A DNA stretch of 64,000 nt from Nitzschia sp. pyKryTriq1 (taxonomy: Eukaryota; Bacillariophyta; Bacillariophyceae; Bacillariales; Bacillariaceae): contig OY101126.1 of assembly GCA_956465555.1 (NCBI GenBank), forward strand, positions 1,530,501 through 1,594,500. Reading direction: 5' to 3'. The notes beneath the pieces are model-generated. The model ran no database searches, was not told the origin of the DNA, and saw only the letters and a program-made list of their open reading frames with translations. Made by a program: the position numbers and the translations under genes. Below are positions 2,771 through 56,609 of this stretch, in pieces (the first letter of the stretch is position 1; every line of letters starts with the position of its first letter).

Positions 2771-3897
2771 GCAAATCTGTTTGATGTTGCTTCTCCAATC
2801 CTTCGATGCTACGTCGCTGCGAGAAAGAATGAACGTAGGACTAGGAGGACACGATGACGGTTGCTATTCATTTCTCGAAGATGGGAGAAAGAAACACTCC
2901 ACACGACAACATCGAGTATGAGACCTGTTTTAGCTATCGACTATTAGCGCTCCTTGGCAGGAAAGCTTTGATAGGAAAGGAACTTGCCATATCCATCTTT
3001 GGAACAAAACGAGCCCCCAAAATGACACTACACACGACAACAAATTCAAAATATGTTACGCGGTAGGGTTTTACCCTTGTACTGTCGGTGGGCAGTGATC
3101 ATTTTGAGTTCACAAGCAAAAGGAGAGGAGAAAGGGAAGGAGAGTTCGCATTAATACATCTGATTTTTTCGAAAGCCTAGCAGTCAACATTGTTTTTTGC
3201 TCGGCTAAGTGATTCAAGTTAAAGATAAAAAGAGAAAGCACATTGCGTTTAAGATGTTCAGAATTATGCCTGCCCGAAAGATCACTCCAAAAACCTCGCA
3301 CCTAGGTTTCTGAGTTAGGTGTGAAGTCCGTTTTAACTCAGTCCGGAGGGTTTGCCAGGATGTAGTTAGAGAACGCTCGAAAGAGATGATGCAAGCAAAC
3401 GCAAGCAGCATCGACGGTTTCATTCATAGGCAGAAAAGTTTCTTAAATAATAGAAAGAGTAATGGGATAAGAATCTTTGACCGGAAAAAGTATGCAAGAC
3501 GCAACGAAAAAGAGTTGCAAAGGGGTTTCTTCTTGTTCGAATGGATTCAACCACTCTCACCGCGGAAAATCTCTTGACACATCGAGGGCTTGCATTGCGG
3601 AAGCACAAACCACGAACGACGAAGTGGTCCGAGCGAAACTCGACTGACAAAAAGGAAAGTAGGGAAGGGACATGGTTTGCGGAGACCGCCAATACAAGCT
3701 GACTTTGCAGGCAAGCCCTCTTTGGACGATAAATAGCAAGTTTGTTTTAATTTCTCCCGCTCGCCTGCTTCTATTGTGGTGAAGCCAGACTCGAAGGATT
3801 ATTGGAGGAGCCTGAGAGCAGTCCATATCGGATTTATCCCAAAGACTTTTTTATATTTTATTTGTTATGTTCTCGGGCATTTTTGCAAACTTTGGCC

Positions 3898-12965: not shown

Positions 12966-13520
12966 TTAAGCATCGCTCTCTGAAGCTGGCTCCTTCCCAA
13001 TTAACTTGGCCACGACGGGTGTCAAAATTACAGTCGGAGGAAAGCGGATCGGGCTTGCCGCCTTATGGGCGGCATACGCGATCGCGAAGGTGCCGGCCTT
13101 GTCAGCAGCGTCAGAAGTCTCAATTCCGACATTGGCCAAAAGAGAGCTGACGTCAACACCGTTGTCCACAAGGACGTAGCAAATGGCAAAGCTGACAATG
13201 GCAAGAGGAATTGAAGTGGCAAGGTATGCAATTCCGTATTTCTTCAGTAAGGACTTGGCTGATTCCCCATCCCCTTCCTTGGCAGCCTGGACGAGACCCG
13301 CTTCCAAACCAAACTGCTCGGTTGTAGCTTCGACGTCGGGTTTTTCTTTCGTCAGAAGATTCAAAGAACTCGACTTGGACTTGGACTTGGGCTTCGAATT
13401 CGACTGCTGGAAAACTCGTTGAAGTTGAATTCGATTTGTTCTCGCAACGGGCTGGAAGGAGAGAGCAGCGCCCACAAGAGCGAGGACCACGAACAGTGGA
13501 AATGAGAGGGAGCGCATCAT
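12966..13520 (-). CDS. Plastid-targeted DUF1279 (FAM210-like) membrane protein
   Basis: An intronless 184-aa product from ATG 13520 (13517 also possible). Residues 1-19 form a hydrophobic signal peptide ending before ALSFQP (19-24). This fits the diatom ASAFAP-type motif in which Phe follows the signal cleavage site and directs proteins into the four-membrane plastid. A basic Ser/Lys/Arg-rich transit-like segment follows. Residues 91-175 match DUF1279: LLKKYGIAYLATSIPLAI, a membrane segment ending in NGVDVSSLLANVGI, then GTFAIAYAAHKAASPIRFPP and ILTPVVAKLIG. Animal FAM210 relatives act in mitochondria; the plastid role is not known. The longer upstream open frame (to 13787) is ignored because the signal peptide must be N-terminal. 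Confidence 0.85.
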   Translation of the reverse strand: MMRSLSFPLFVVLALVGAALSFQPVARTNRIQLQRVFQQSNSKPKSKSKSSSLNLLTKEKPDVEATTEQFGLEAGLVQAAKEGDGESAKSLLKKYGIAYLATSIPLAIVSFAICYVLVDNGVDVSSLLANVGIETSDAADKAGTFAIAYAAHKAASPIRFPPTVILTPVVAKLIGKEPASESDA

Positions 13521-14325
13521 TTGGAGGGGTAGCTTAGCTTTGATAGGGGACTTGAGCTGCTTGAAAGAAAATGTCAAGCTGGCTGGTTTGGGTTGTGCAC
13601 ATTCATGTGCGTGGAAATCGGAAGAAAACTGCAACTTGCGTTTCTGCAGAAGAATGCCGTGCATGATGATTGATTGATGTTGGACCGACGCACCAGCGAG
13701 CGATGCGATGATCGATGTTGCGTCAGCTGAAAGAGGAACGGTATTTGGAAGCCACTCAACACGTGGAAGGTCCGACTTACCGTCCACAAAAATAGACTAA
13801 AACGACCCGATTATTTATTCATTCCTATCGCCGTTACGGTTTACGGTAGACTTGTACTTGTACCGTACCCTTACAATTACAGCGGTAGCGGTACTTCTTG
13901 CTTGTTGTGTGGTAGAACTACCGGTACTACATACTGTAGCTCCATCTCTACTACTACTACTCTACCGGTACCGGTAGTAGAGTAGAGAAGAGAGAGTAGA
14001 GCAGTAGCTCTACCACTAGCTAGAGTAGTAAAGTACTCTCTACTCTACTACTAGAGTAGCGTACTAGTAGCTCTACTACTACTACTAGGTACTACTCTCT
14101 AGAGGAGATAAGTAGAGTTGTAGAGTGAGAGTAGTAGAGACCTCTACTCTACTACTACTAGCTAGTTGCTACTCTACTACTACTACGAATAGTCCCTTTA
14201 TTAACCCTACCGGTATGTCTTCAATAAATAAAGAATGTAAAGAGATATTACTAGTAACACGATGGGGTTTATTGTCCATCCTGCTACTGTATGTGGAAAA
14301 TTGAAGTGGAGGAGCAAACTGAATC
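13521..14325. other. Intergenic, CTA/TAG trinucleotide tracts
   Basis: Upstream of the DUF1279 start the sequence passes through TACCGGTACCGGTAG strings (about 13960-13980). From 13930 to 14190 it is almost entirely CTA/TAG/GAG trinucleotide mixtures. The open frame at 13530-13790 has no independent support. No RNA gene is seen. Confidence 0.6.
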
Positions 14326-20117: not shown

Positions 20118-21077
20118 ATGACAGCAGCCCCGAAGCTGACTCTCTTTAATACCGTTGTCGTTGTCTCTTTGCTGATCGCCCCAGTGGCGCCGCAGTGCGT
20201 CATTTGCCCAGATGGCACCAAGAACCTAGCATTCCCGGATCGGATCGTTCCATTCTTCAACTTGGACGGAGGGAACGCAAACCCCTCCTGCCAGCAACTG
20301 GCAGATGCAGCAGAAGCGGCAGATTCAAGGATGGTCGACTGCGATCTCGTCAAAGCGCAAGCTGGCTACTGTGGATGCGATGGGGTGCAGCCGGAGCAAA
20401 AGTGCAGCTTCTGTCCGGACGGCGCGGAGCCCGCGAACAAGGACCTTGTGGCTCCTTCCACCGATGTCTGCGGGGACTTGTACACCTACGCCGAGTACCT
20501 CAGCGAAGAAGACTGCGGATCCAGAAGGTTCAACTCAATGCAAGGACTCGCCTACATTTGCGGCTGCCCGGGCGTTAAAGCACAGTGCAGTCTATGCCCC
20601 GATGGCTCGCCCCCTCCGCTGCTCGACAAGGAAGCGCAGCCAACGGGCGAGACTTGCAGCGAAATGGCCTTGATCATCGAAGCCTTCACTGCTGACGTTT
20701 GCGTGGACTCCGATACCACCGTATTGGTCAGTGCCGCGAGATGTGGCTGTGCGGACTCAAAATTTCCTGTCTGCTCTGTACAGCAGAACACCCATCTATG
20801 TACTCACGAATTGTTGGATACCGTGCCGGATCAAGACTGCGAGTGCCATAGCTTCTGTGATGGAGAGTGGGTTCAATGCCACAACTTTCCTGGTGGTCTC
20901 TTGAATAGTCAAGTCTGCACAGGCGTGCCAGTCAGTGGATGCAATCGAGCTAGTGCCACGGGGCAAAATACTTCTGCCGCCACGTCTGCGACGCAGCTAG
21001 GAACCTCAAGCATCATCACTATTGCTTTTGCGGTCGGCTCTGTCCTCATACTCTTTACCAATATAATGTACTCGTAG
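20118..21077 (+). CDS. Secreted protein with three six-Cys CPDG modules
   Basis: A 319-aa intronless protein. A signal peptide (residues 1-25, VVVVSLLIAPVAPQ) is followed by three modules of about 60 residues. Each begins C-x-x-CPDG (CVICPDG, CSFCPDG, CSLCPDG), has two or three spaced cysteines and ends in C-G-C. A fourth, divergent Cys-rich part (CTHELLDTVPDQDCECHSFC) and a Ser/Thr spacer follow. A C-terminal hydrophobic segment (IITIAFAVGSVLILF) could be a membrane anchor or GPI signal. The module recurs, diverged, in the gene at 35099. No function is known; a cell-surface or frustule-associated role is speculation. Confidence 0.85.
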   Translation: MTAAPKLTLFNTVVVVSLLIAPVAPQCVICPDGTKNLAFPDRIVPFFNLDGGNANPSCQQLADAAEAADSRMVDCDLVKAQAGYCGCDGVQPEQKCSFCPDGAEPANKDLVAPSTDVCGDLYTYAEYLSEEDCGSRRFNSMQGLAYICGCPGVKAQCSLCPDGSPPPLLDKEAQPTGETCSEMALIIEAFTADVCVDSDTTVLVSAARCGCADSKFPVCSVQQNTHLCTHELLDTVPDQDCECHSFCDGEWVQCHNFPGGLLNSQVCTGVPVSGCNRASATGQNTSAATSATQLGTSSIITIAFAVGSVLILFTNIMYS

Positions 21078-21144: not shown

Positions 21145-24100
21145 TTATACGAGAAGGTAACGGGTGCCTCCCTCAGTTTCAACGATTTCACCGGGCTTCG
21201 GCTTTGTTCCTTTTGGCAGCGGCGGTGTCGTTATTCTAGTGCCATCCTTGAATCCCTCCTTATTGGACACGAATCCTGTGATCGATCCATCCGAATTCTG
21301 CCACCAACGAGCGATCGAAGCTACATTCGAAGAGTATTCTTCTGAGGACGAGCTCTTTGTCCCTACTGATGATTCTGTCGTTGGTTGGGCTTTCACTTTG
21401 GCATCCTTCGAGCCCCCCATGCCGTTGAACCCATCGAAAGAAAACATAGAAAATAGTATGTTTTGACTCGACTTTTTGGTGCTGGAACCACTTGCTGGTC
21501 CTTTGCTCACAGTGCTCTTCTCTGCTTCTGCACCATTCGGTCCAGGCGTAACCAAGGATGGCTTCGTCGCGACGGACTCGTGCGTACCGGTAGGGACCTT
21601 CTTTACTTCTTTTGAGTTGCGCGCCCCCGGGAGCGCGTTTCCTGGCTTTGTATCGGAAGCTAAGCCGTTCGGTTTTGGGCTCTCTGACGTCAAAAAGAAT
21701 GGTCGCGATGCCTCGTCCTCTGGATTCCAACCCGCCAATTCTTCTGCATCGTCCAAACGTTCCAGAAAGAAAAGGTCGTCAGATAGACCCTGTGATTCCA
21801 TTCCTGTAGTGCTCGTTTGGCTCGAGCTAGCCTTTGAACCATCAGCTGCATTTCCTCGCTTTGATTCGTCGCCAAAGCTAGAACTCGGTAATTTCATTCC
21901 ATCCTTGAAGGAGCCAAAAAAGAAGCCTTCCACGGCACGAACCTCATTCGCTTCCTTGCTGGTAGCCGCTGTTTTATCCCCTTTTGATGAGCTTTCCCCC
22001 CCAAAGAAAGAAAAGAAATTGAGGCCATTGGGTTGTTCAGATTTCCCATCTTGCTCAGAGGCTTTTGGCTTAACTCCCTCTGTCCCTTTGTTATCGCTAT
22101 CCCTTTGCTGTCGTAGCTTTTCGCTTTCAGACACCAAACTCTCGCGAATTTCAATCAATTCTTTTGTTTCTTCTTTAGCTCGCTTTGTGGCCAGTTCATT
22201 GTCTGCTCGCCTCGCGGCGACATCGGCAGCTTCCGTTGCTAGTTGATCCCCTGACTTTTTTGCAGTCGGAGATGGGCGAGCAGAGCCTTTCTTGGAAAAA
22301 TCTCCAAACATTTTTGATACCTGTCCCAGCAAGGAAGTATCTGCCGGCGCTTCACCGTTTTTGGAACCAGTCGAGACCGACGACCGATTTGAAGCGGAAC
22401 CGCCAGTCGTGGCGGAATTCTTCGTCGAGTTTAAAGCAAGTGGTGGCTGAGGAGCCTCCTCCAGCCTTGTCAACTTATCACCATTTGGCTGGGTAGTCAC
22501 AGGGGATGCAGAGCGGGTCAAATCACGGGTCTCTCTACTTCCACGATTGCTAGCACCATTGCCGAGAAAAGCAACAGCACCGTTGGGAATCATGTTCTTC
22601 TTTTCGACGACGGGCCCAAGGCTAGACGGAGACGTACTCTTTGTTGGAACGCGAGCTGCCAAGAAACTAGACGAAGTCGTAATATTGCGGCCCGTCCCAT
22701 TAGTGCCATTCGCGATGGTAGTTTCATTTCCGGATTTAACCAGCGTCGCCTCATCCTTCGATACTTTGGGCAACCTACTTTCTTTCGCCACCCTTTCACG
22801 ACGTTCCTTCTCGGCTTCCTCTTTTAACCATTCAAGCCCCACTGCCCGCTCGCGCCGGAGCGCATCCTCACGGGACTTGGATACTGGCACTTCTGCTCGC
22901 TCCTTTGGTGTGGTCTCGTTCTTCTTTTTCATGGCAGCATCGAGAGCCCTAAGCTTTGCTTGAGAGACTTTTTCCTCTCGTGCCAGTTTCTCGCCTCGTT
23001 CCAGGCGTGCCTGTTCAGCTTCTGCCTTCAGCCTTGCAATATCTGCCATTCGTTGTAGCTTTAGTTCCGCATCATCAAGTGAACTAAATTTTCTCTGAGG
23101 CTCATTTGGTGTTGACCCACTTCTTTTCTGAAGAGCCAAATTGAGAGATTCCACTTTGATTTCCATGGCATCTGTGGAGCTCTCTTCGGCCGACACTCGT
23201 GGTCTTTTTGGCAGGTCATACTTTTTTGGCTGCGCTTCCTTCGTGCGGCGTTCTTTGTCGGCTTCCGCTTTGAGCCTGGCAATTTCTCTCGCCCTCTCAA
23301 GCTTTAGTTCATCCTCCCTTCGCTTAGCCTGGTCTTCATCTTGCTCGATCTTCGACGAACCGTTTCCGCTCGGAGACAAATGATCCGTAAACTGGAGCTC
23401 TGGGTCGTTGGCCTCATCAGTTGCCTCGATGATCGGTCTCTGCCTTTCGGTTTCTTCATCGAGACGCCTGGCATTGGTTTCTTCATTTGCTTGCGTTGTT
23501 GCCTGTTGATTTTCTGCTCGTCTCGCGGCGACATCGGTAGCTTCCGCAGCTATTTGATCCCCTGCCTTTTCTGCAGTCGGAGATGGGCGAGCAGAGTCTT
23601 TTTTGGAAAAATCTCCAAACATTTTTGGACCTTGGCCCAGCAAGGAAGTATCTGCCAGTGCTTCACCATTCTTGGTACCGGTCGAGGCCGCCGAACGATT
23701 TGCAGCAGGAACACCAGTCGTGACGAAACTCTTCGTCGAGTTTGAAGAAAGTGATGGCTGAGGCCCGTCCTGGAGCCTTGTCGCCTTGATACCATTTGGC
23801 TGGGTAGTCCCTGGGGATTTGCCGAGAAAAGCAACTGCACCGTCAGGGATCATGGCATCTGTGGCTTTTTCTTCGGCCGACCCTCGTGGCATTTCTGGCA
23901 TGTCAAACTTTCTTGGCTGCGTTTCCCTCGTGCGGCGTTCCTTGTCGGCTTCCGCTTTGAGTCTGGAAATTTCTCTCGCCCTCTCAAGCTTTAGTTCATC
24001 ACCGAGACGCTTAGCAGACAAATAATCCGTCAACGGGAGGTCAGGATCGTTGGACTTTTCAGTTGCCTCGATGATCGGTCGCCTCCTTTCGTTTTGTCCC

Positions 24101-27100
24101 TCAAGACGCCTATCAGATTTCTCTGTTTGGCCAGATTCCTTCTGTGTTGAGCTTGCTACTTCCAAGTCTTGATTCTCGCCACCCCCGACTTCATTTTTGC
24201 GCGTCGTGAACGGGAGGTCGGGATCGTTGGGCTCATCAGTTGACTCGATGATCGGTTTCCGCCTTTCGGCTTCAAGACGTCTGGCAGGGTCATCTGTTTG
24301 GCCAGATGCCTTTTGCGCTGAACTTGCTACTTCCAAGTCTTGATTCTCGCCACCCCCGATTTCGTTTCTGCGCATCGTAAACGGGAGGTCGGGATCGTTG
24401 GTCTCTTCTGATGCCTCGATGATCGGTCTCCACCGTCCGTTTTTTCCGTCAAGACGCTTAGCAGGCTTCTCTGTTTGGCCAAATGACTTCTGCGCTGAAC
24501 TTGCTACTTCCGAGTCTTGATTCTCGCCACCCCCGACTTCGATTTGGCGCGTTGTAAACGGGAGGTCAGGAGCGTTGGTCTCGTCAGTTGCCTCGATGAT
24601 TGGTCTCCGCCTTTCGGTTTCTTGGTCAAGACGCCTGGCAATAATTTCTTTTTGTTCTTTTTTTGTGTCCTGTTGATTGTCTTCTCGCCCCGCGGCGACA
24701 TCGTCAGGTACCGCTGCAGGTTGTGCCCGTGACTTTTTTGCTGTCGGAGAAGGCCGCGCGGAGCCTTTCTTCGAGAAATCTCCAAACATTTTTGATAATT
24801 GGCCCAGCAACGAAGTATCCGCTGGTGCTTCAGATATCTTCTGCGTTGAACTTGTTTCTTCAAAATCTTGATTCTCGCCACCCACGACTTCATTTTTGCG
24901 CGTAGCAAAAGATAAGTTGGGAGCATTGGTCTCTTCAATTGTCTCGATGATCTGTCTCCACCTTGTGGATTCTCCGTTAAAACGAATGTCAGGGTCCTCT
25001 GTTTGGCCAGATGCCTTCTGCGCTGAACTTACTACTTCCGAGTCTTGATCCTCGCCGTCACCGACTTCGTTTTTGGTCGTCGTAAACGGGAGGTCGGGAT
25101 CGTTAGTCTTTTCAGTTGCCTCGATCATTGGGCTCATCCTTTTGGATTCTCCCTCAAGACGCCAGGCACCTTTCTCTGTTTGGCCGACTGCCTTCTGCGC
25201 TGAACTTACTACTTCTGAGTCTTGATCCTCGCCACCCCCGACTTCGATTTGACGCATCGTAAAGGGGAGGTCGGGATCGTTGGTTTCTTCAGATGCCTCG
25301 ATGATCGGGCTCCTCCTTTTGGTTTCTCCGTCAAGACGCCTGGCACCTTTCTCTGTTTGGCCGACTGACTTCTGCACTGAACTTGCTACTTCCAAGTCTT
25401 GATTCTCGTCACCCCCGACTTCGCTTTTGGTCGTCGTAAACGGGAGGTCGGGATCGTTGGTCTCTTCAGATGCCTCGATGATCGGGCTCCTCCTTTTGGT
25501 TTCTCCGTCAAGACGCCAGGCAGGCTTATCTGTTTGGCCAGATGCCTTCTGCGTTGAGCTTGCTACTTCCAAGTCTTGATTCTCGTCACCCCCGACTTCG
25601 ATTTGGCGCGTCGTAAACGTGAGGTCGGGATCGTTGGCCTCTTCATATGCCTCGATGATCGGGCTTCGCCGTTCGGTTTCTCTGTCAAGACGCCTGGCAC
25701 GTTTCTCTGTTTGGCCAACTGACTTCTGCGCTGAACTTGCTACTTCCGAATCTTGATTCTCGTCAACACCGACTTCGTTTGTGCGCCTCTCGCGATTCAG
25801 CATTACACCATAGCTACTTGGTGGGAGAAAGTCTGATTTTTCAGTCTGGCCACGCATTTTGTTTAGTTCCAACTGCGCCTCGGCTTCAATGTTTTTATGA
25901 CGACGCTGACGCTCCCTGTTTTTTGCTGCATCCCTACTCCTAGTAGATGGAGTAAACCCTTTGCGCAAAGTTTCCTCCTCAACCAATGCAGCTTTTTCCT
26001 GCGCCTGCTTGGCGGCTATCTCTCGAAGCCTTGCCTCTTCTTCTAGCTTGCGTTTCAATTCTTCGGCTTCACGCTTTGCTCGCGCAAGTGCCTCTTTTCG
26101 CTCAGCTTCCTCTTTACTTTTGGCATCTTCCTCGATGGCTTGGCGGCGCATTTCCTCCACGGCAAGCCGAGCCTTTTGCTCCTCAAGATCAACCCGCTCC
26201 AATTCCGCAGCCAGCTGTTCTTTTTTTTGCGTTTCTTCGGCTTCCCGACGGCGTTTCTCCATTTGAAGACGTCTTTCCTCAATGCCGCCGAGTAATCGAA
26301 ACTTTTCATTTTGCTTCACGTGCAGCTCATCAAGGGCGTCATTCTCATTCTTCGAGAGCCTGGTTTCGCTTGAATCTTTCGCATCCGGAGAAGAAGTTTG
26401 GTCGGCTTGGGCAGTGGTCTTTAGGTTGGTATCATACAGCCGCAATTCCTCCCTCTCCTGCGCTTGCTGGTCCGCGATCCCACGAAGTCGGGCCTCTTCT
26501 TCTCGCTTGCGTTTTATTTCTGTGGCTTCACGCTTTGCTCGTGCCTGTTCCTCTTTTCGTCGAACGTCCTCTCTGCCCTTTCCGTCTTCCTCGATGGCTT
26601 GGCGACGCATCTTTTGGATAGCTAGCCAGGCTTTTTGCTCTTCCCACTCTACACTTTTCATCTCAAAAGTCAATTTTCGCTTTCGTTCCATTTCTACAGC
26701 GTCTTGACGGCGATTTTCTTTTTTCAGTCTTTCGTCGTCCAAGTCCATGATGAATCGGAGCTTTTCAGACTGTTGTATCTGGATCTGATCGAGATATTTG
26801 TCGTCGCCTTTCAAGTTGAATGCGGCTTTTGCATTTGGTTCCATACCTTTTGCATCGCGTTTTTGACGGTCCTCTTGTAGTCTCAGCTCTTCCCGCTCCT
26901 GTGCCTGCCGACGTGCCAGTGACCGTATTCGTGTTTCTTCCGCTAGTCGCCTCTTGTGATCTTCACTCTGTTGCTTCGCCCGTTTTTTGATCTTCTCAAT
27001 CTTGCGCCTTTCATCATCTTGAACAGCTTGGCGACGCATCTCCTCGATCGACGATCTTGCCTTCTGCTCTTCCCAATCGACTGCTTTCATTTCATCGGCC

Positions 27101-30100
27101 AATCGTATCTTCTTTTCCTTATCCCGGGATTCTCGACGGAGTTTTTCAGTCTGCAGGCGTTCTTCGTCTAATTCTGCGAGGAGTCGGAGCTTCTCAGCTT
27201 GCTGAAGCTGTATTTCGTCTACCGCCTCTTTCTCCATTTCCCTTCTCTCACTTTGTGCCTCTGAGGCGCGCTTTGCAACCTCATCCTTTCGACGCAACTC
27301 GTCCCTTTCCTCTGCTTGTCGCACCGCGATTTCACGTAGGCGTGCTTCTTCTCCCGCGCGACGCTGCTTCTCAGCTGCAACTTTTTCCTCAGAGAGCTCA
27401 GACTGACCACTTTCGCGTTCTTTCTCGCTTTCTACCATCGGCACACTCCCTTTCTTTGTCATTGAAACTGTGGCCTCCTTGGACTTCGTCTCTACTAGGT
27501 CAGACGCCTGTTTTTCGGCAAGCTTATGAGCTGTCTCTACTTGCTCTTTGCGGACGCTGACCCGACGTTCCGATTGTTGTCTTCTGCGTTGCTCGGCTCT
27601 CTGCTCAATGTCATCGAGATCGTCCCCTGTCGCAACAGATGGAGAGCCGGGAGGTACCTGACCCTCTTTTACATCGCCAACGACGCCTGACGACAACGAA
27701 CCTGCAGAGGGAACAGAAGTTTGGTTCGAGTCGATTTCAGTTTTGCTAAGCTCAGGGAAAAGTCTCGCGCTTGGGTTTTCGTTGGTCGGAAGGCCACTCT
27801 TCTGCAGTGATTTAGCGAACGATCCAAAAGGAGAGAACGTGGTGGTTGGAGGCTTCGAGCCAATCTCGTATTTGGTCAGCGGGGGGAAAGGTTTTGCGCT
27901 TGGTTTTTCTTTTTCCTCATCTTCGCTGGTCGGCTCGGCTTTCACTTCATCATCGCTCGTAGGAGGGCTACTCTTCTCCAATGAATTAGCGAAGGATCCA
28001 AAAGGAGACGACGCGGTGGTTGGAGGCTTCGAGCCGATCTCGTTTTTGGTCAGCGGGGGGAAAGGTTTTATGCTTGGCGTGTCCTTTTCCTCATCTTCGC
28101 TGTTTGACTCTACTTTCGGTTCATCCTTGCTTGTAGGAGGACCACTCTTCTCCAAGGAATTGGCGAAGGATCCAAAAGGAGAGAACGTGGTGGTTGGAGG
28201 CTTCGAGCCAATCTCGTTTTTGGTCAGCGGGGGGAAAGGTTTTGCGCTTGGTTTGTCGTTTTCCTCACCTTCGCTGGTCGGCTCGGCTTTCACTTCATCA
28301 TCGCTCGTAGGAGGGCTACTCTTCTCCAATGAATTAGCGAAGGATCCAAAAGGAGACGACGCGGTGGTTGGAGGCTTCGAGCCGATCTCGTTTTTGGTCA
28401 GCGGGGGGAAAGGTTTTGCGCTTGGCGTGTCCTTTTCCTCATCTTCGCTGTTTGACTCTACTTTCGGTTCATCCTTGCTTGTAGGAGGACCACTCTTCTC
28501 CAAGGAATTGGCGAAGGATCCAAAAGGAGAGAACGTGGTGGTTGGAGGCTTCGAGCCAATCTCGTTTTTGGTCAGCGGGGGGAAAGGTTTTGCGCTTGGC
28601 TTGTCGTTTTCCTCACCCTCGCTGCTCGGCTCTGCTTTCGGGTCATTCTTGCTTGCAGGAGGGCTACTCTTCTCCAAGGAATTGGCGAAGGATCCGAAGG
28701 GTGGAAACGTGGTGGTTGGAGGCTTCGAGCCGCCCTCGTTTTTGGTCAACGGGGGGAAAGGTTTTATGCTTGGCTTGTCGTTTTCCTCACCTTGGCTGAT
28801 CAGCTCTGCTTTCGGGTCATCCTTGCTTGCAGGAGGGCTACTCTTCTCGAATGGATTGGAGAAGGATCCGAAGGGTGGAAACGTGGTGGTAGGAGATTTC
28901 GAGCCAATCTCGTTTTTGGTCAGCGGAGGGAAAGGTTTTGTGCTTGGCTTTTCGTTTTCCTCACCTTCGCTGGTCGGCTCGGCTTTCACTTCATCATCGC
29001 TTTTTGTGGGGCTGTTCTTGTCCGTGGTAGCAGCAAAGGCGCCAAAAGAAGGAATTCCTTCCTTTTTCTTGAGTTCAGGGAATGCTTCAACGCCTGGCGC
29101 ATCGTCCTTGCCTGGGTTTACTTTCTGCGCATCGCTCATGTAGGAACCCAAGGGCGAAAAGGGAGATGTTGGTTTCTTGCCTCCCTTATTCTCAATTTCA
29201 TCACTACTCTTGGGAGGACCACTGTTATCGACGGAGCTCGTGTAGGAGCCGAAGGGCGAGAAGGGAGACGTTGGTTTCTGCTCGCCCTTATTCTCAAATT
29301 TAGGAAATGCTCGTATGTCCCCGTCAGTGCTTGATCCTTCTTTTGCTTTTTTATCGCTCTTCGGAGGACCACTCTTTTCGATAGAACTCACATAAGAACC
29401 AAAGGACGAAAACTTGGTTTGTCCATCGACCTTATTTTTGTCGTCGCTGGTTTCAGGGCCGTTCTTGTCGTTTGAGCCGGCGAACGGGCTAAAGGAAGAA
29501 AATTTCTGACCCGATTGGTCTGATTTCGGTTCATCAGCGGAACTGTCGTTTGAGATTATTCCCTCAGATTCTTGTTCCGCTTCCATGGCTCTATCTTCTG
29601 AGCCAAATGAGCGTGACTTGGATGACCAGGGCACGGACTCGCTGCTATCCACAAATCGGGAACTCGCTTTCACAGCTACAACGCCATCATCGGAAATTCC
29701 AACTGCTCGAGCCTTCTCCCCATCAAGGTCGACTTTCGGCGATTCATCTGGATCAATGTCGGTTGGAGCCCATGGTTCATCCTCTTTCGGTCTTTCGAAC
29801 AGACTTCCGCTGAAAATCGATGACAGTGAATTCGTATTGAAGAACGAATTCTTCGGTTCCGCCGGCGCATCGTCTTCTTCAGCGTCGCGTCTATCCCTTT
29901 CTGCTCTGATCCGCGCTTCCTCGATGCGCCTACGATTTTCTTCAGACTTTCGTTCTCGGGCCTGTTCTGCCGCTCTGGCCTCCTTCGCACGGAATCTGGT
30001 TTCCTCTTCGTCGAAATAATTCTTTTCTTCACGTACACTATTCATGTTTGCAATTCTTTCTCCTCCCGCCTCTTCCACGCGCCGCTGTTGATCGAGTAGA

Positions 30101-32532
30101 GCCTCGGCTTGCTTGCGTCGTCGCTCTTCTTCCTCATCGCTTTCACGTCTCATCCGTCTCTTTTCCATTTCGGCCGCCCTCATGACTCTCTCCGACTTGC
30201 CCTCCTTTTCTTCACGCACCCGCTTCATGGCTGCAATTTTTTCAGCCTCCGCCTCCTCGATTCGCCGCTGATGATCAAGCAGTTCCTGGGCATAACTTCG
30301 ACTTAGCTCATCGTCGTCCATGCCATCGTCGCTCTGAGGCTTCTGCGGCTTCTGCGATTGGAAAGGTTGCTGTACATTTTCCTCCTCCACGCGCGGGCTT
30401 CCTTGATTCATCAACGATTCTTCCTCTCCAGCCCGACTGCGACGCTCCATCTCAAAACGAAGCCTATTCTCTTCCTCTGTTTGGATCGACACTACCCGCC
30501 CTTTAAGGATATTTTGCATTTCCGCCCTTCGTTTTGCCTCGGCAAATGCTGCCAGTCTAGCTTCTTGCGCAGCCTTTCGTGCTTCAATCTCCATAGCCTT
30601 TTTCTTCGTCGCCTCCGCAAATTCCTCAAGTCTTCGCTTTGCCAACATTTTGCTATGTTCTTCTTCTTCGGTCCGTCGGCGTTTTTCCTCTTCTCTCGCA
30701 ATCTGTTCTTGCCGTTCTGCTTCGATGCGAGCTTCTTCTTGTCGAAGGCGCTCTTCTGCTTCTGCCAGTTCTAACGTTCTTTGCTCTAGCAACTTGATTT
30801 GCTCTTCCGCCTTTCGTTGCGCTTCGTGGAGAGCCTCCAGCCGAGCCTCTTCTCGCACCCTCAGTTCTTCTCTTTTGGCAGCTTCCTCCTGGGCTTTTTG
30901 TCGCGCTTGATTCTTCCACCCTGATTTATTATCACCCGGCTGACTCACAGAGAGATACGAATTGGATATTGAATCTTGTTCGGACTTATACGCGTTTGGT
31001 AGGGTGTCGACAATGGTTGTAGCCGAAGAGGTTTTAGCTCGCTTGGGATTCTTCTTCTTGGATTTCGGGGGAATGGTTTCGGTCGAGGAGGGGGTTGCTC
31101 GCTTGGGAATAATCTTCTCCTCTGGTGCCGTGGGAATATTGCGTGTCGGGGAGGTTGCTGCCTTGGGAGTCTTTTTCTCTTGTGTCGGGGGAGTCTCATT
31201 TAGCCTACTAGTAGGCTTTGACCTGGAGGAAGCCTGTCGGTCTAGCATCTTGCTTGATGATGATGATGATGATTCTGAGGAAGACGGAAGTAAGGGTATT
31301 TCATTCCTTTTTGTTTCACCCCCGAGGAGGTAGTATGCCACCTCCTCCTCCTGCAATAGAAGATTGTATTCCTCCGCCGTCAAATCGGCAAATTCGTTGA
31401 GATTCACTGTCTTGCCTGTCCGACGGTAGTGCCTTTCGACTTGCTCAAAATTGGCTCGGAATATTTCGAGTCTTTGTTCATCAAAATCTTTGTCGTAATA
31501 TTTGCACCACTCGTTGTACACCTCCCTGGCTCGATCTATTGGGGTTCTGCTAGTATTTGACTTCAGCTGCTTTGTCGTACGAGCAGCCTTTTGAGGCCGG
31601 ACCTTGCTCGGAGACGGCGATTCAATCATTCCATTCTCCTGAAGCTGCTTCGCTTCTTCCGTCGTAAGATCTGCGAGTTCATTTAGCTCGATCCAGCGGT
31701 CGTTGGCACCGGTAGCAAAATATTGGCGTTCCAGTTGTCTCAAGTGCGCGCCGAATATTTCCATCCGAGCCTCATTGAACGTCTTGGAAAAGAATTTGAT
31801 GTAATCTCGATATACATTTTTAATCTTGTCCGCCCGATCCGTTGCCAGCTCATTTCTGAATTTTTCAAAGTCTATTTCGACAGTGGGTTCTCCCGCCAAG
31901 GCTCCCAGAAAGAAGTTCCTGGATTGATCTTGCGTCCTTGCGACTGGCGTGGAAATAGAAGGAATTGAGCGTTTCGACGACGGTCTAGAACTACTAGAGG
32001 ACAGTGGCCCATACACCTGGTCTTGATCTGGATCTTCATCTTGAGCCTGAGTGATGCTTTCTTGCTTGATCGCCATGAACTCTTCGGGACTGCAGTCTCC
32101 AAATTCGTTCAAGCGCCTTGGCGGAGGCGCCGGCCGTCGCAGTTCGCGGGCTCGCTGCGCCACCATGGCATTTGCCTCCATGAGAGCTCGGTAGTTCTTT
32201 TGAAAGTGTTGGAAGCGCTCGGCGTCGAAGGGGCCCTTCTGGAACCGGGCGCGCCAGGCGTCGTAGGCTTCTCGCGTGCTGGATAGGAATTCTTCCGAGC
32301 CGTCGTCGTCCATCGCTGCTGCCTTCAGGTACTTGTGCCAGTGCTGGTCGTACGAGTGATCATGGAATCGTCGCGGCGGCCCAACCCCGGGGCGCACCGA
32401 GACCCCGGCCTGACCAACTGCTGGGGGCGACGACGACGACGACGAGAGAAACGCGTTGCATGGAACTGGAGCACTGCTGGACGTCAGTGCTGCCAGGAAG
32501 AAGGTCACCGCGGCGGGGGTGGCAAGTCGCAT
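21145..32532 (-). CDS. Giant I29-propeptide / coiled-coil / repeat protein
   Basis: One uninterrupted frame of 3795 codons from ATG 32532. Order of parts: signal peptide ending PCNA with F next (cleavage near 27, diatom plastid-type context). Three cathepsin-propeptide (Inhibitor_I29) modules follow at about 88-153, 238-297 and 337-392, e.g. EVYNEWCKYYDKDFDEQRLE with LNEFADLTAEEY. No papain-like peptidase domain follows. Then a Ser/Pro/Lys linker and a long charged coiled coil (about 540-960, EERLRQEEARIEAERQEQ-type). A 58-aa repeat array (about 1197-1590), a second coiled coil (about 1600-2250), a 59-aa repeat array (about 2245-2840) and blocks with SLLGQ..KMFGDFSKK come next. A C-terminal module of about 55 residues follows (IARWWQNSDGSITGFVSN ... 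GGTRYLLV). A papain-inhibiting or plastid/secretory scaffold role is possible but not shown. Many plus-strand frames over this gene are shadows. Confidence 0.9.
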   Translation of the reverse strand: MRLATPAAVTFFLAALTSSSAPVPCNAFLSSSSSSPPAVGQAGVSVRPGVGPPRRFHDHSYDQHWHKYLKAAAMDDDGSEEFLSSTREAYDAWRARFQKGPFDAERFQHFQKNYRALMEANAMVAQRARELRRPAPPPRRLNEFGDCSPEEFMAIKQESITQAQDEDPDQDQVYGPLSSSSSRPSSKRSIPSISTPVARTQDQSRNFFLGALAGEPTVEIDFEKFRNELATDRADKIKNVYRDYIKFFSKTFNEARMEIFGAHLRQLERQYFATGANDRWIELNELADLTTEEAKQLQENGMIESPSPSKVRPQKAARTTKQLKSNTSRTPIDRAREVYNEWCKYYDKDFDEQRLEIFRANFEQVERHYRRTGKTVNLNEFADLTAEEYNLLLQEEEVAYYLLGGETKRNEIPLLPSSSESSSSSSSKMLDRQASSRSKPTSRLNETPPTQEKKTPKAATSPTRNIPTAPEEKIIPKRATPSSTETIPPKSKKKNPKRAKTSSATTIVDTLPNAYKSEQDSISNSYLSVSQPGDNKSGWKNQARQKAQEEAAKREELRVREEARLEALHEAQRKAEEQIKLLEQRTLELAEAEERLRQEEARIEAERQEQIAREEEKRRRTEEEEHSKMLAKRRLEEFAEATKKKAMEIEARKAAQEARLAAFAEAKRRAEMQNILKGRVVSIQTEEENRLRFEMERRSRAGEEESLMNQGSPRVEEENVQQPFQSQKPQKPQSDDGMDDDELSRSYAQELLDHQRRIEEAEAEKIAAMKRVREEKEGKSERVMRAAEMEKRRMRRESDEEEERRRKQAEALLDQQRRVEEAGGERIANMNSVREEKNYFDEEETRFRAKEARAAEQARERKSEENRRRIEEARIRAERDRRDAEEDDAPAEPKNSFFNTNSLSSIFSGSLFERPKEDEPWAPTDIDPDESPKVDLDGEKARAVGISDDGVVAVKASSRFVDSSESVPWSSKSRSFGSEDRAMEAEQESEGIISNDSSADEPKSDQSGQKFSSFSPFAGSNDKNGPETSDDKNKVDGQTKFSSFGSYVSSIEKSGPPKSDKKAKEGSSTDGDIRAFPKFENKGEQKPTSPFSPFGSYTSSVDNSGPPKSSDEIENKGGKKPTSPFSPLGSYMSDAQKVNPGKDDAPGVEAFPELKKKEGIPSFGAFAATTDKNSPTKSDDEVKAEPTSEGEENEKPSTKPFPPLTKNEIGSKSPTTTFPPFGSFSNPFEKSSPPASKDDPKAELISQGEENDKPSIKPFPPLTKNEGGSKPPTTTFPPFGSFANSLEKSSPPASKNDPKAEPSSEGEENDKPSAKPFPPLTKNEIGSKPPTTTFSPFGSFANSLEKSGPPTSKDEPKVESNSEDEEKDTPSAKPFPPLTKNEIGSKPPTTASSPFGSFANSLEKSSPPTSDDEVKAEPTSEGEENDKPSAKPFPPLTKNEIGSKPPTTTFSPFGSFANSLEKSGPPTSKDEPKVESNSEDEEKDTPSIKPFPPLTKNEIGSKPPTTASSPFGSFANSLEKSSPPTSDDEVKAEPTSEDEEKEKPSAKPFPPLTKYEIGSKPPTTTFSPFGSFAKSLQKSGLPTNENPSARLFPELSKTEIDSNQTSVPSAGSLSSGVVGDVKEGQVPPGSPSVATGDDLDDIEQRAEQRRRQQSERRVSVRKEQVETAHKLAEKQASDLVETKSKEATVSMTKKGSVPMVESEKERESGQSELSEEKVAAEKQRRAGEEARLREIAVRQAEERDELRRKDEVAKRASEAQSERREMEKEAVDEIQLQQAEKLRLLAELDEERLQTEKLRRESRDKEKKIRLADEMKAVDWEEQKARSSIEEMRRQAVQDDERRKIEKIKKRAKQQSEDHKRRLAEETRIRSLARRQAQEREELRLQEDRQKRDAKGMEPNAKAAFNLKGDDKYLDQIQIQQSEKLRFIMDLDDERLKKENRRQDAVEMERKRKLTFEMKSVEWEEQKAWLAIQKMRRQAIEEDGKGREDVRRKEEQARAKREATEIKRKREEEARLRGIADQQAQEREELRLYDTNLKTTAQADQTSSPDAKDSSETRLSKNENDALDELHVKQNEKFRLLGGIEERRLQMEKRRREAEETQKKEQLAAELERVDLEEQKARLAVEEMRRQAIEEDAKSKEEAERKEALARAKREAEELKRKLEEEARLREIAAKQAQEKAALVEEETLRKGFTPSTRSRDAAKNRERQRRHKNIEAEAQLELNKMRGQTEKSDFLPPSSYGVMLNRERRTNEVGVDENQDSEVASSAQKSVGQTEKRARRLDRETERRSPIIEAYEEANDPDLTFTTRQIEVGGDENQDLEVASSTQKASGQTDKPAWRLDGETKRRSPIIEASEETNDPDLPFTTTKSEVGGDENQDLEVASSVQKSVGQTEKGARRLDGETKRRSPIIEASEETNDPDLPFTMRQIEVGGGEDQDSEVVSSAQKAVGQTEKGAWRLEGESKRMSPMIEATEKTNDPDLPFTTTKNEVGDGEDQDSEVVSSAQKASGQTEDPDIRFNGESTRWRQIIETIEETNAPNLSFATRKNEVVGGENQDFEETSSTQKISEAPADTSLLGQLSKMFGDFSKKGSARPSPTAKKSRAQPAAVPDDVAAGREDNQQDTKKEQKEIIARRLDQETERRRPIIEATDETNAPDLPFTTRQIEVGGGENQDSEVASSAQKSFGQTEKPAKRLDGKNGRWRPIIEASEETNDPDLPFTMRRNEIGGGENQDLEVASSAQKASGQTDDPARRLEAERRKPIIESTDEPNDPDLPFTTRKNEVGGGENQDLEVASSTQKESGQTEKSDRRLEGQNERRRPIIEATEKSNDPDLPLTDYLSAKRLGDELKLERAREISRLKAEADKERRTRETQPRKFDMPEMPRGSAEEKATDAMIPDGAVAFLGKSPGTTQPNGIKATRLQDGPQPSLSSNSTKSFVTTGVPAANRSAASTGTKNGEALADTSLLGQGPKMFGDFSKKDSARPSPTAEKAGDQIAAEATDVAARRAENQQATTQANEETNARRLDEETERQRPIIEATDEANDPELQFTDHLSPSGNGSSKIEQDEDQAKRREDELKLERAREIARLKAEADKERRTKEAQPKKYDLPKRPRVSAEESSTDAMEIKVESLNLALQKRSGSTPNEPQRKFSSLDDAELKLQRMADIARLKAEAEQARLERGEKLAREEKVSQAKLRALDAAMKKKNETTPKERAEVPVSKSREDALRRERAVGLEWLKEEAEKERRERVAKESRLPKVSKDEATLVKSGNETTIANGTNGTGRNITTSSSFLAARVPTKSTSPSSLGPVVEKKNMIPNGAVAFLGNGASNRGSRETRDLTRSASPVTTQPNGDKLTRLEEAPQPPLALNSTKNSATTGGSASNRSSVSTGSKNGEAPADTSLLGQVSKMFGDFSKKGSARPSPTAKKSGDQLATEAADVAARRADNELATKRAKEETKELIEIRESLVSESEKLRQQRDSDNKGTEGVKPKASEQDGKSEQPNGLNFFSFFGGESSSKGDKTAATSKEANEVRAVEGFFFGSFKDGMKLPSSSFGDESKRGNAADGSKASSSQTSTTGMESQGLSDDLFFLERLDDAEELAGWNPEDEASRPFFLTSESPKPNGLASDTKPGNALPGARNSKEVKKVPTGTHESVATKPSLVTPGPNGAEAEKSTVSKGPASGSSTKKSSQNILFSMFSFDGFNGMGGSKDAKVKAQPTTESSVGTKSSSSEEYSSNVASIARWWQNSDGSITGFVSNKEGFKDGTRITTPPLPKGTKPKPGEIVETEGGTRYLLV
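24020..25800 (-). repeat. 59-aa (177-bp) tandem repeats inside the giant gene
   Basis: Ten units with core PIIEASEETNDPDLPFTT, EVGG.ENQDLEVASS.QKS and GQTEK.ARRLDGE. Period 177 bp is measured between TTTCTCTGTTTGGCC sites at 25171 and 25348. One unit boundary (about 24660-24840) is interrupted by an inserted SLLGQ-KMFGDFSKKG block. An eleventh, isolated unit lies near 23400. Confidence 0.85.
27765..28940 (-). repeat. 58-aa (174-bp) tandem repeats inside the giant gene
   Basis: Seven units with core KPFPPLTKNEIGSKPPTT, PFGSFANSLEKS and an acidic spacer. In the later units two subtypes alternate (SGPPTSKDEPKVESNSEDEE and SSPPTSDDEVKAEPTSEGEE), so the recent expansion unit is a 348-bp dimer. 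Degenerate relatives (PFSPFGSY..S) extend toward 29500. Confidence 0.88.
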
Positions 32533-33148: not shown

Positions 33149-34479
33149 ATGGCGGACCCAAGCTACAGCACGGATGGATCCAACGCTGCGCCTAGGAAAG
33201 AGATCTACACCTACAAGGCACCATGGACGGTATTTTCCATGGGATGGAGTCGAAGGTAAGAGAGAATCAGGAACAGGAGCAGGAACGGGGACTGCACGAG
33301 TACAGGTACAGCTACAGGTACCGGCTCCTCGTTCTGCTGGTACTATACCAGGACCACTCACTCTACCTGTAAATGTACAGAAACCTACCGTGCCACTCCC
33401 ATCTTTCTCACCTGGCTTGCCTGCCTGCATTCATTCGTGCTTCGCAGACCCGATCCGACTGCCATGTTCCGTCTTGCCATCGGGAGCTACGTGGAGCAGT
33501 ACTCGAACGTAGTGTCCATCATCAAGAAAAATCCCGGCGAGGGGAATCTTTACCAAGCGGCCGAGTTCGATCACCCCTACCCCTGCACCAAGTTGATGTG
33601 GTCGCCCGACATGCGCCTGGGCGCCAACGATTTGCTTGCTACTACCGGCGACTATCTCCGCATTTGGTCCGTGACAGATGACGGATCAGGGCAAAACATG
33701 CAGGTGCAGAAGGAAGCCCTGCTCAACAACAACAAAACATCAGAGTACTGCGCCCCCCTCACGTCCTTCGACTGGAACGAAACGGACCCTACCATTCTTG
33801 GAACTAGCTCGATAGACACCACCTGTACCATATGGGACGTAGCGACTCAAACGGCGCGCACACAACTGATTGCTCATGACAGAGAGGTTTTTGATATTGC
33901 ATTCGCGCGTGGAAAAGACGTATTTGCTTCGGTCGGCGGGGATGGATCTGTTCGTATGTTCGACCTTAGATCCCTGGAACATTCCACCATCATTTACGAA
34001 TCTCCGGATCTAGACCCGCTATTGAGGTTGGAATGGAACAAACAAGATCCCAACTATTTGGCTACGTTCATGGTGGACTCCCGAAGAACCATCATTCTAG
34101 ACATTAGAGTTCCATCCTTGCCGGTGGCAGAGCTTGGAGGCCATCTAGGGTGTGTCAATGCGGTCGCCTGGGCTCCGCACTCCTCCTGTCATATTTGTAC
34201 AGCGGGTGACGATTCACAAGCTCTTATTTGGGATTTGAGTGCCATGCCGAAACGACCAGTCGATGATCCTATCTTGGCATACAACGCCGATGGCGAAATC
34301 AACAATTTGGAATGGAGTGCCAGCCAACCCGACTGGGTCAGCATTGCCTTCAAAGACAAGTTGCAAATCTGTGAGTTGGAATGGTTGTTGCGAAGTTCAA
34401 AAACATTTGCTGGTTCGACACAGACTCACCCCTTGGATGATTTTTGCTTTATAACTTTGTTCGTACAGTGAGGGTATAG
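33149..34479 (+). CDS. DCAF7: DCAF7/WDR68 (LWD/TTG1-family) WD40 protein
   Basis: Three exons, 33149-33255, 33448-34370 and 34469-34479, with introns of 192 and 98 bp, give 346 aa. Exon 1 encodes KEIYTYKAPWTVFSMGWSRR. Exon 2 starts RPDPTAMFRLAIGSYVEQY, exactly the family start, then WD repeats (SIDTTCTIWDV, GGDGSVRMFDLRSLEHS, GDDSQALIWDLSAMP). Exon 3 is only 11 nt: it converts QIC-plus-stop-less read-through into LQILRV-stop, the usual C-terminus of WDR68. The family is a scaffold for DYRK/HIPK kinases, CUL4-DDB1 ligase and, in plants, clock and bHLH-MYB complexes. Length and ends match well. Confidence 0.95.
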
Positions 34480-35098: not shown

Positions 35099-35689
35099 TT
35101 ACCAAATCATATTGAACGCTCCCACCAAAGCAATCCAAACTAGAGCTGTTTGCTTTGTAGACACACCTGACGTTGGGGGAGGCGTGGGAGACCTGGTGGG
35201 TCGCCTTGTCGGTTCACCAGTGGGTTCAGGAGACTCGGTAGGCGACCGTGAGGGCTTTCGGGAATCTCGTTCACAGCCGCACGGTTCATCAGCAATCTCT
35301 TGCACTGTGGGGCAGAAGGTCTGATTGAAACCTCCCCTTTGCGCCACTGTGAATGCGGCGGCGCAGGTCGTCAATCCTTGATCCTCGCCGGGGATATCAA
35401 TGATGCCACCTGGGTCAGTGGAGACTCCACCTCCACAGAGATCGCAGATGAATTCGACGCACTCGCACGGTTCCTGCACTAGCGGTTGCAACTCCTCACA
35501 CTGCGCATCGCTGATAGCGCCCGAATCAGCGATCTCTTGAATCTCAGCACATGTGCGGCTTTCACGTCCTGGGATCTCGACGACGCCGTCTTCGTTTCCG
35601 ATCATCATGTCTGGTCCGCAAGGGCTGCAGGCAGCAGAGCCGCCCAAGAAGAAGGCAGAGAGCAAAGTTAAGGTCAACCTAAGATTCAT
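35099..35689 (-). CDS. Secreted six-Cys-module protein with Pro/Thr stalk
   Basis: A 196-aa product from ATG 35689 (the in-frame GTG at 35704 is not used). Signal peptide NLRLTLTLLSAFFLGGSA is followed by two modules. Each runs C-x-x-C, about 25 residues with VEIPG/IDIPG, then TC, then C, then EPC-x-C (CSPCGPDMM ... EPCECVEF; CDLCGGGVS ... EPCGCERD). A stalk of SRSPTESPEPTGEPTRRPTR type leads to a hydrophobic C-terminus (ALVWIALVGAF), possibly a GPI signal. The module resembles those of the gene at 20118. Function unknown. Confidence 0.82.
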   Translation of the reverse strand: MNLRLTLTLLSAFFLGGSAACSPCGPDMMIGNEDGVVEIPGRESRTCAEIQEIADSGAISDAQCEELQPLVQEPCECVEFICDLCGGGVSTDPGGIIDIPGEDQGLTTCAAAFTVAQRGGFNQTFCPTVQEIADEPCGCERDSRKPSRSPTESPEPTGEPTRRPTRSPTPPPTSGVSTKQTALVWIALVGAFNMIW

Positions 35690-36848
35690 CTTGTTGCGAC
35701 GCACGTGAGAATATCTGTAAAAAAGAAGTGCAATAAGTCGTCGAAGTAGAAGTAGTGTCGTTCGTCTTGACTCTTGACAGCTACTACTGGACTACTAGCT
35801 AGTAGAGCGCGGACAGCGGTGATGATGGTCGGTGATATTATTTATTTGATTATTCGTGGACGATTTTCATGCGGAAGCTGGAACGACTTAAATTGTGAGA
35901 CCCGACGAAAAAGAGCCAGCCAGGCACAAACAAATTCAAATGATGCATGTCTCTAAGAAAAGCTTCCGTTCACTACAACAAAGACGTCGTATGAGTGTCC
36001 TATCATAAAAATATTTAGAGGTCAGGTCGTCCGAAATTTTAGTTGTATTGGTGTTGCCGGCGCGCACAAAAGGTTGAGGGTGGAGGGGGCAGTGGTCGGA
36101 GGCAATAATACCCTCTTCTCTAAGTTTCTCTCTACCGTACCGTACTTTGCGTACAGTATTTCACGGGCACTCTACAGTATACCGGTACATACAGTACCGT
36201 ACCAGTACGTTCCTTGTCAGGCGCCCCTTCAATCCCAAAATTCTCCCCCAAGGCTGCGCAGATACGCGCGTGTGGGCAGCGGCCCCACCATCGCGCTCCA
36301 GTGGCTAAGTTTTATAATTCTTTCATCTTAAGGAAAAGCTCCGGAGGACAAATTGGGAAAAAAAAAGTTGGAAAAATTACTTAGGCGGTACTTAGGCAAA
36401 ATGGTTGACAAGAGCTACCTCTTTGGTTTTGTAACCTTTCGGCCATGAAGTTGCATCAAAATTTACCTCTTAATAAGGAGTTTCGGGGTATGCAAGAGTT
36501 GGAGGCGTTGGTTGTGCCTGTGGTGAGCAGGAGGGGATCAATTGCCGTTGATTAAATGTTATTTCGGTGGAATGAATGGCGAATTTCTTCGATGGGTGTT
36601 CGGTAAAAAAAAAACCAAAAAAATTCAAGTGAACCCCATTTGAACTCCTGACAAATTCAGGATGCCACAGACCAATTTCCAACCATTTCCAACTCCATCG
36701 ACTGAGGCGTAAATAAGAGCCTAATGGAGGCTATAAAGAAGGCTATAAAATCAATATTCAGGCTCTAGAAGAGAAATAATGTGACCGGTTCCTATTTCAC
36801 TGTTTTACAATAATATGACAAATAATAATAGATATGGATACACCCAGT
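35690..36848. other. Intergenic
   Basis: No supported gene. TACCGTACC/GTACAGTA strings occur at 36135-36210. The stretch 36350-36720 is AT-rich and featureless. Confidence 0.5.
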
Positions 36849-56100: not shown

Positions 56101-56609
56101 GATAATATGCATCAACGCACTCGGTGCTATTAACTGTACTTCCACCTGTCACGTCATTATATGCTTTGACGATGAGATCTTCGACCAAATGTTGCTGTTT
56201 GTCTGTGAATGTACCGTAGAAGCCTACAAACACCAATGTAAGTGATCCTTCACTCTGCTGAGGGTCTTTCGGCAAATCTAGGCCACACGGACTGCTCGGC
56301 TTGCTGGTTGGCTTGCTGGTTGGCTTGCTGGTTGGCTTGCTGGTTGGCTTGCTGGTTCTCTTGCTGGTTGGCTTGCTGGTTCTCTTGCTGGTTGGCTTGC
56401 TGGTGGGTGTACTGCTGGGCTTGGTCTTTTTTTCTCCTTGTCTTTGTTTTCGCCTCGGTCTTGTTTTTGCCCTCTTCTTTTGCACCTGCTTCTTCAGTTG
56501 GCTGTGCGGCGAGATTCTTTGGCTTTGCGTCGACTCCTGTCATCGGAAACAACAAGAGCCGCCAAAGACAGTCCACGACAATCAAAGTCGTAGGAGTAAA
56601 TCTCTTCAT
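53144..56609 (-). CDS. Secreted Ser/Pro-rich repeat protein, frame interrupted
   Basis: Sense is set by the N-terminus: a signal peptide from ATG 56609 ([21 protein letters not shown]), a Lys/Glu-rich spacer, PTSK repeats (about 56293-56415) and a folded domain (55880-56290). The domain reads [46 protein letters not shown] and RRYLRG. Then a long array of PSSxPSxEPSS units (53730-55760), three 28-aa (84-bp) [19 protein letters not shown] units (53430-53700) and a Cys-rich tail (DECCSCCAQ ... RNQCTVIV). The frame changes by one base between signal peptide and PTSK array at a run of seven A (56427-56433). Two TAA codons sit in the array at 54323-54325 and 54743-54745. Splicing inside the array, an assembly error or a decayed gene could each explain this. 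Likely extracellular or wall-associated. Confidence 0.7.
53730..55760. repeat. 12-bp-based PSSx coding array with larger nested duplications
   Basis: The array consists of CTGCTGGGCTTG / CTGCTCGGTTCA-like dodecamers (plus-strand view). These are arranged in larger blocks of variable length containing GAGTGGTGCTGGGCTTCGTA and GGTTCGGCACTGGGTGTACT. Because units are multiples of 12 bp without common stops, several frames on both strands stay open. Confidence 0.9.

Follow-up and report, generated by a model that had tools for sequence, protein, structure and literature searches.

The I29 propeptide domain is usually regarded as a handle on papain-like enzymes, and the segment following its LNxFxD core passes through the active-site cleft. 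Several I29 units in tandem are found in salarin. The ERFNIN motif of such propeptides reads ExxxRxxxFxxNxxxIxxxN (PMC6355014), and CTLA-2alpha, an I29 protein standing without a peptidase, requires three Trp residues within the first two helices and a Cys residue near the cleft (PMC4089206). None of the literature titles and abstract openings surveyed names a diatom I29 protein of the architecture described below: the combination of I29 or cathepsin propeptide with diatoms leads to the oomycete papers PMC3790786 and PMC5700374, and the former counts I29 as one of the domains that diatom-specific genes are depleted in. A giant diatom protein with repeats also invites comparison with PYCO1, a diatom Rubisco linker which is characterized by the stickers KWSP and WxSM and a pI of 10.03 (PMC10288592).

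The window analysed here, which is the whole 64,000-nt stretch of contig OY101126.1 from Nitzschia sp. pyKryTriq1, contains a giant ORF on the minus strand (32532 to 21145), which comprises 3,795 codons and a stop codon, is free of stops over 11.4 kb and codes for a 422-kDa protein with a pI of 5.4 and three Cys residues. The plus-strand reading of the same segment has stops throughout. There is an in-frame stop four codons upstream of the first ATG and an AATAAA sequence 39 nt past the stop codon. Since the frame is so long in DNA with a GC content of about 51%, it is not attributable to chance. The 11.4-kb coding stretch proposed in the first-pass annotation therefore stands as one open frame at the same coordinates, with the strand corrected to minus. 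All the features of the protein discussed below are likewise on the minus strand. Judged from the sequence, of which the function proposed below is a reading, the gene is real and its architecture is unusual, and it looks more like that of a long molecular tether than that of a protease or a classic inhibitor.

The giant gene is flanked on either side by small Cys-rich ORFs with signal-type N-termini (20118-21077, plus strand, and 35099-35704, minus strand), which have no Pfam match at E ≤ 0.01 and contain CxxC motifs looking similar by eye (CVICPDG and CSFCPDG; CSPCGPD). The former is convergent with the giant gene and its end is located 67 nt away. Head to head with the giant gene there is a gene coding for a WD40 protein (33437-34471, plus strand; PF00400, E 4.3e-14), which we take to resemble DCAF7/WDR68. 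Farther away are a FAM210A/B-like domain protein (12966-13787, minus strand; PF06916, E 2.4e-23), the N-terminus of which, GAALSFQP, is similar to diatom plastid presequences, and a PT-repeat protein with SSTPSxxPSSxPS units (53144-56957, minus strand; PF04886, E 6.9e-32 for the ORF at 54743-56485). The latter is spread across several overlapping frames, and an intron or a frameshift may split this cell-wall type gene. Both the PT-repeat protein and the GAALSFQP N-terminus are typical of diatoms.

Close to the N-terminus of the giant protein three modules are located, namely M1 (residues 85-160, 32053-32280), M2 (residues 230-305, 31618-31845) and M3 (residues 330-400, 31333-31545), which are related to papain-family propeptides, as judged by sequence and by the predicted fold of M3. 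The I29 profile PF08246, with a Pfam gathering cut-off of 24.4 bits, matches the whole protein on two stretches (E 3.5e-11, 43.7 bits). Taken by itself, M3 clears the cut-off with 35.9 bits (E 9.8e-9; residues 339-389, profile positions 1-59 of 59), while M1 (21.3 bits, E 3.4e-4; residues 104-152) and M2 (15.7 bits, E 0.019; residues 246-293) match the profile below it. The two weaker modules are tied to the family through M3, with which M2 shares 45.8% identity over 59 columns (tblastn E 6.6e-14) and M1 30% over 76 columns (tblastn E 3.3e-5). Neither the M2-M3 Smith-Waterman score nor the M1-M3 score of 76 was equalled by any of 2,000 shuffles, and the direct M1-M2 score was equalled by 76 of 2,000. 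Thus, the three I29-type modules noticed in the first-pass annotation are borne out.

The pattern RxxxFxx[NH]xxx[IVL]xxx[NY], which was derived from the modules themselves, matches the 3,795-residue protein at three places, one in each module, always with LNE[FL][AG]D downstream. With regard to ERFNIN, R and F are present in all three modules and the first N in two (H in M2), the I position is occupied by L, L and V, the last N is retained in one module (Y in M2 and M3), and E is replaced with F in all three. The profile built from M1-M3 retrieved triticain alpha (E 3.4e-5), procerain B (5.3e-4) and procaricain (6.7e-4) from the PDB. AF2 predicts three helices for M3, with a mean pLDDT of 74.1 in the top model out of five and of 54-65 in the rest. 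Among the best 50 of its 75 Foldseek matches in the PDB, ranks 1-15 are all papain-family chains, propeptide or crammer, including ten chains titled as proform or proenzyme, 5jt8 twice, 4qrv, the cathepsin L propeptide and crammer. The top E-value is 0.016, none is ≤ 0.001, and the ranks directly after 15 are taken by unrelated proteins with a probability of at most 0.15. In the case of M3, structure prediction speaks for the I29 assignment. The position of M1 and M2 under the Pfam cut-off would suit a fossil, that is, an ancient peptidase precursor which lost its catalytic domain and left functionless propeptides in a low-complexity giant. Such an origin is very improbable, as all three cores are retained although M2 and M3 have diverged to saturation at synonymous sites (pN 0.44, pS 1.06).

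The lack of a papain-like catalytic domain, also pointed out earlier, is confirmed: no peptidase C1 was found in the giant protein at E ≤ 1, I29 being its only Pfam family at that threshold, and no NCBIfam family matched it at E ≤ 0.1. Nor was a peptidase C1 found at E ≤ 0.01 in the 20 ORFs scanned out of the 48 other ORFs of the window with at least 150 aa. I29 modules without a peptidase might form a multi-headed cysteine-peptidase inhibitor, each module blocking a papain-like enzyme in the manner of CTLA-2, crammer and salarin and the long tail serving for localization. The cores RxxxFxx[N/H]xxx[IVL]xxx[N/Y] and LNE[F/L]xD kept in every module are in agreement with this, as are the Pfam match of M3, the similarity of its model to crammer and propeptide chains, and the existence of free-standing I29 inhibitors (PMC4089206).

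The replacement of the ERFNIN E with F in all three modules speaks against it, and so does the segment following the LNxFxD core, which reads EFNEKYVGS in procaricain and EFSSIYLGT in procerain B, with Tyr and Gly in both. Counted without gaps from LNE[F/L]xD, the Tyr/Gly positions are occupied by K/E in M1, Q/N in M2 and L/E in M3. The residues expected in the peptidase cleft thus appear to be altered, which is suggestive only, because Amb a 11, a real proform, has Tyr without Gly as well (EFVNTYANS) and in M2 a Gly occurs just one position after the expected one; both points may be counted in favour of an inhibitor. In the Fasciola proform, Tyr is present right before the end of the alignment. 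Compared to the three Trp residues of CTLA-2alpha, there is one Trp in the region of the first two helices in M1 (Trp 93) and one in M3 (Trp 342), whereas the sole Trp of M2 (Trp 280) lies beyond the second helix, as judged by eye. The Cys residues of the giant protein are at positions 25, 147 and 343, with Cys 147 located within the M1 sequence NEFGDCS. Taken together, the altered cleft segment and the Trp/Cys pattern would make inhibition of the I29 type less likely, and an inhibitor leaves the remainder of the 3,795 residues without explanation. We consider a multi-headed inhibitor unlikely. Of the two roles suggested in the first-pass annotation, a peptidase trap and a structural scaffold, the latter is favoured, since the Tyr and Gly residues of the cleft appear to be replaced and the chain is made up mostly of charged helix-like blocks and disordered-looking repeats.

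Residues 1-27 (32452-32532) resemble a signal peptide, the 11-residue hydropathy maximum being 2.1 at residue 7, in line with the signal peptide proposed earlier. Ten cleavage positions pass a crude (-3,-1) rule, and one of them, after CNA, would make F the +1 residue. Judged by criteria from PMC4329603, residues 28-60 (32353-32451) constitute a Ser-rich, transit-peptide-like segment with eight Ser/Thr and three basic residues; no acidic residues occur at positions 28-57, the first one being at 58. For diatom plastid import, the residues that ASAFind allows at +1 are F, W, Y and L (PMC4329603), so the N-terminus fits an ER signal followed by F at +1, which is a diatom plastid-import pattern. 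Owing to the ten positions passing the crude rule, plastid routing stays only the likely reading. The earlier choice between a secreted and a plastid-targeted protein accordingly shifts towards the plastid on the possible +1 F and the acid-poor Ser-rich stretch, as a prediction and not a proof. The protein contains 16 N-glycosylation sequons versus 22.5 expected, three Cys residues and no second transmembrane-like segment, which gives little sign of an extracellular protein; the few Cys residues and sequons would fit a stromal protein better.

The same features bear upon the suggestion that the protein is secreted, has a structural role in the cell wall, the frustule or adhesive mucilage and carries I29 modules incidentally. 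Diatom walls commonly contain large repeat proteins, the N-terminus is of the signal type, and a PT-repeat protein is encoded in the same window. Against this stand the three Cys residues, the number of sequons below expectation, the lack of pentalysine clusters, and the contents of Ser (10.3%) and Lys (8.7%), which fall below silaffin-screen levels, making a secreted structural protein doubtful. A silica-protein type was rejected likewise, no pentalysine clusters being present in the giant protein.

A large part of the chain consists of charged helix-like blocks, six of which are long (146-185 residues): H1 (residues 540-700, 30433-30915), H2 (735-890, 29863-30330; measured at 745-890), H3 (1700-1880, 26893-27435), H4 (1905-2050, 26383-26820), H5 (2060-2215, 25888-26355) and H7 (3066-3250, 22783-23337). 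In H2, a dot-plot reveals a 52-residue stretch duplicated 61 residues further on, and H3 contains the first of three related units. The blocks were scored against shuffles for the hydrophobic moment at 3.5 residues per turn and for charge pairs at i,i+4. All six long blocks have more pairs of opposite charges at i,i+4 than the shuffles (z +3.9, +2.8, +2.9, +2.6, +4.4 and +3.2, H5 being the strongest) and fewer pairs of like charges (z -2.5 to -4.3); the salt z of the short block H6 (36 residues) is +1.5. The heptad moments are -0.4, +2.0, +0.2, 0.0, +1.1 and -0.1, respectively.

The long coiled coils reported in the first-pass annotation did not hold up. Clear heptad hydrophobic periodicity was not found in five of the six long blocks (moment z -0.4 to +1.1) and is borderline in H2, as compared with z values of +3.1 to +4.7 for tropomyosin (the whole protein and two overlapping pieces) and +3.4 for GCN4. 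For these two coiled coils, which make up the contrast set, salt z is -0.1 to +1.1. Scanning by the 56-residue-window rule gave no coiled-coil windows, and the periodicity part of the rule was passed by two windows, both within the repeat array A. The heptad test is not specific, as the non-helical arrays also give a heptad moment (z +3.0 for the Pro-rich array A and +2.6 for array B), and a high moment alone is thus no proof of a coiled coil. Charged composition, scarcity of Pro and Gly and enrichment of opposite charges at i,i+4 (z +2.6 to +4.4), all expected of ER/K helices, were found in six out of six long blocks. ER/K single alpha-helices are an established class, and on these statistics alone the charged blocks look like members of it.

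The several repeat arrays described in the first-pass annotation are corroborated for two arrays, A and B, by both Tandem Repeats Finder (TRF) and regularly spaced motif anchors. Array A (27718-29508) is built of SPFGSFANSLEKSxPP ... KPFPPLTKNEIGSKPPTT units with 12 motif anchors, the final eight of which are spaced exactly 58 residues apart, and has a two-unit order of 348 nt according to TRF. The motifs SPFGSFANSLEKS and KPFPPLTKNEIGSKPP are retained in most of its regular copies and could be binding motifs. Antisense to array A there is a 493-codon stop-to-stop frame (27662-29143, plus strand), which is probably just a consequence of the tandem repetition and not a gene. Array B (24004-25812) is made up of units about 59 residues long, RRLDGETKRRSPIIEASEETNDPDLPFTT..., arranged in two blocks that an L repeat separates. 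At 24028-25786, TRF detects a 177-nt unit in 10.0 copies, and the pattern used gives nine anchors, 57-59 residues apart inside the blocks; a further copy is located near residue 3033. The last third of the protein harbors three L repeats found by pattern match (DTSLLGQxxKMFGDFSKKxSARPSPTA; 24658-24825, 23491-23658 and 22180-22347), which share DTSLLGQ...KMFGDFSKK, together with four ELKLER-type helices. A Rubisco linker of the PYCO1 type was rejected, as neither KWSP nor WxSM occurs in the protein and its pI is 5.4 versus 10.03. The EPYC1-type motif [D/N]W[R/K]xx[LIVA] has no matches either.

Comparison of the repeat copies, in which the blocks overlap and the individual comparisons are therefore not independent, gave dN/dS values of 0.44-0.51 for array A (pN 0.12-0.23, pS 0.22-0.42; five overlapping comparisons) and 0.20-0.43 for the charged helices in three of four comparisons, the fourth being saturated (pN 0.28-0.36, pS 0.58-0.86 over all four). 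Selection on the protein is supported by this excess of synonymous over nonsynonymous change. The copies of array B are weakly constrained (dN/dS 0.59-0.95; pN 0.18-0.29, pS 0.22-0.42; four comparisons), and block 2828-2903 compared to that at 3057 has a dN/dS of 1.0 with no synonymous excess (pN 0.294, pS 0.293). Both of these observations would count against a tether.

The C-terminus probably forms a small domain (residues 3737-3795, 21148-21324). It belongs to a 72-residue stretch for which AF2, run on the single sequence, predicts five short strands; the best model reaches a pLDDT of 74.1 and the remaining four reach 50-53. The domain has no Pfam match, I29 being the only family of the protein, and no convincing sequence or fold match in the PDB. 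Okadaic acid binding protein 2-alpha was dismissed as a chance match (E 0.0076 for the chain, 3.5 and 110 for the stretches alone), and the fold matches, weak and scattered with the best E of 0.57, were also taken as chance. In the viral_contigs collection, 20 peptide-pattern stretches were obtained for this domain and 99 for the I29 alignment, and in genome_contigs 128 for the domain, none of them confirmed by tblastn; the degenerate DNA pattern for the domain had no matches in the two collections. As the collections scanned consist of viruses and prokaryotes, these absences say little about diatoms.

With a probability of roughly 0.4, the preferred reading is that of a giant, probably plastid-directed multivalent tether or scaffold in which I29 modules have been reused for docking, its main rivals being the salarin-like multi-headed inhibitor and the secreted structural protein. 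The three helical modules would act as docking domains at one end of the protein, with the I29 fold serving for binding and not for shutting off a peptidase, and the C-terminal domain would be the second anchor. The charged blocks would be stiff spacers, which, if fully helical (0.15 nm per residue), would each span 22-28 nm, with the 975 residues of the six long ones adding up to about 146 nm, and the repeat arrays might supply many similar weak binding sites. Such a tether could either keep its partners apart or crowd them together inside one compartment. I29 modules are known as peptidase-binding units, which counts against this tether, as do the absence of the PYCO1 stickers, the acidic pI, the nine alternative cleavage positions and the limited specificity of the heptad test. 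It is quite improbable, going further, that the protein is a plastid organiser, e.g. of a pyrenoid or of a thylakoid-associated condensate, in which a propeptide docking domain, rods exceeding 100 nm in sum and two sticker arrays would define a new class of giant scaffolds. Since the component pieces are known, the protein is not categorically new. Three I29 copies heading a peptidase-free giant would nevertheless suggest that this fold lends itself to structural roles, and if the plastid routing is true, the cell brings a protein exceeding 400 kDa across the membranes of a complex plastid.

Among known systems, the proregions of triticain alpha, procerain B and procaricain share with M1-M3 the I29 profile, LNE[F/L]xD and, apart from the substitutions given above, most of ERFNIN, along with the three-helix prediction for M3, whereas the giant protein has three copies, no peptidase following them and changed cleft residues. 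CTLA-2alpha, crammer, BCPI and salarin also represent I29 without a peptidase (PMC4089206). These are small inhibitors, however, and here I29 stands at the head of a 422-kDa chain that further comprises charged blocks and repeats. The charged blocks are similar to ER/K single alpha-helices in that about half of their residues are charged, Pro and Gly are few, i,i+4 salt pairs are enriched and no clear heptad signal is seen; they differ in being assigned by statistics alone. Finally, PYCO1 (PMC10288592) resembles the giant protein by analogy in its regular tandem repeats and its location in the diatom plastid, targeting being predicted in our case, while the giant protein is far larger, lacks KWSP and WxSM, is acidic instead of basic, and combines I29 modules with charged blocks.
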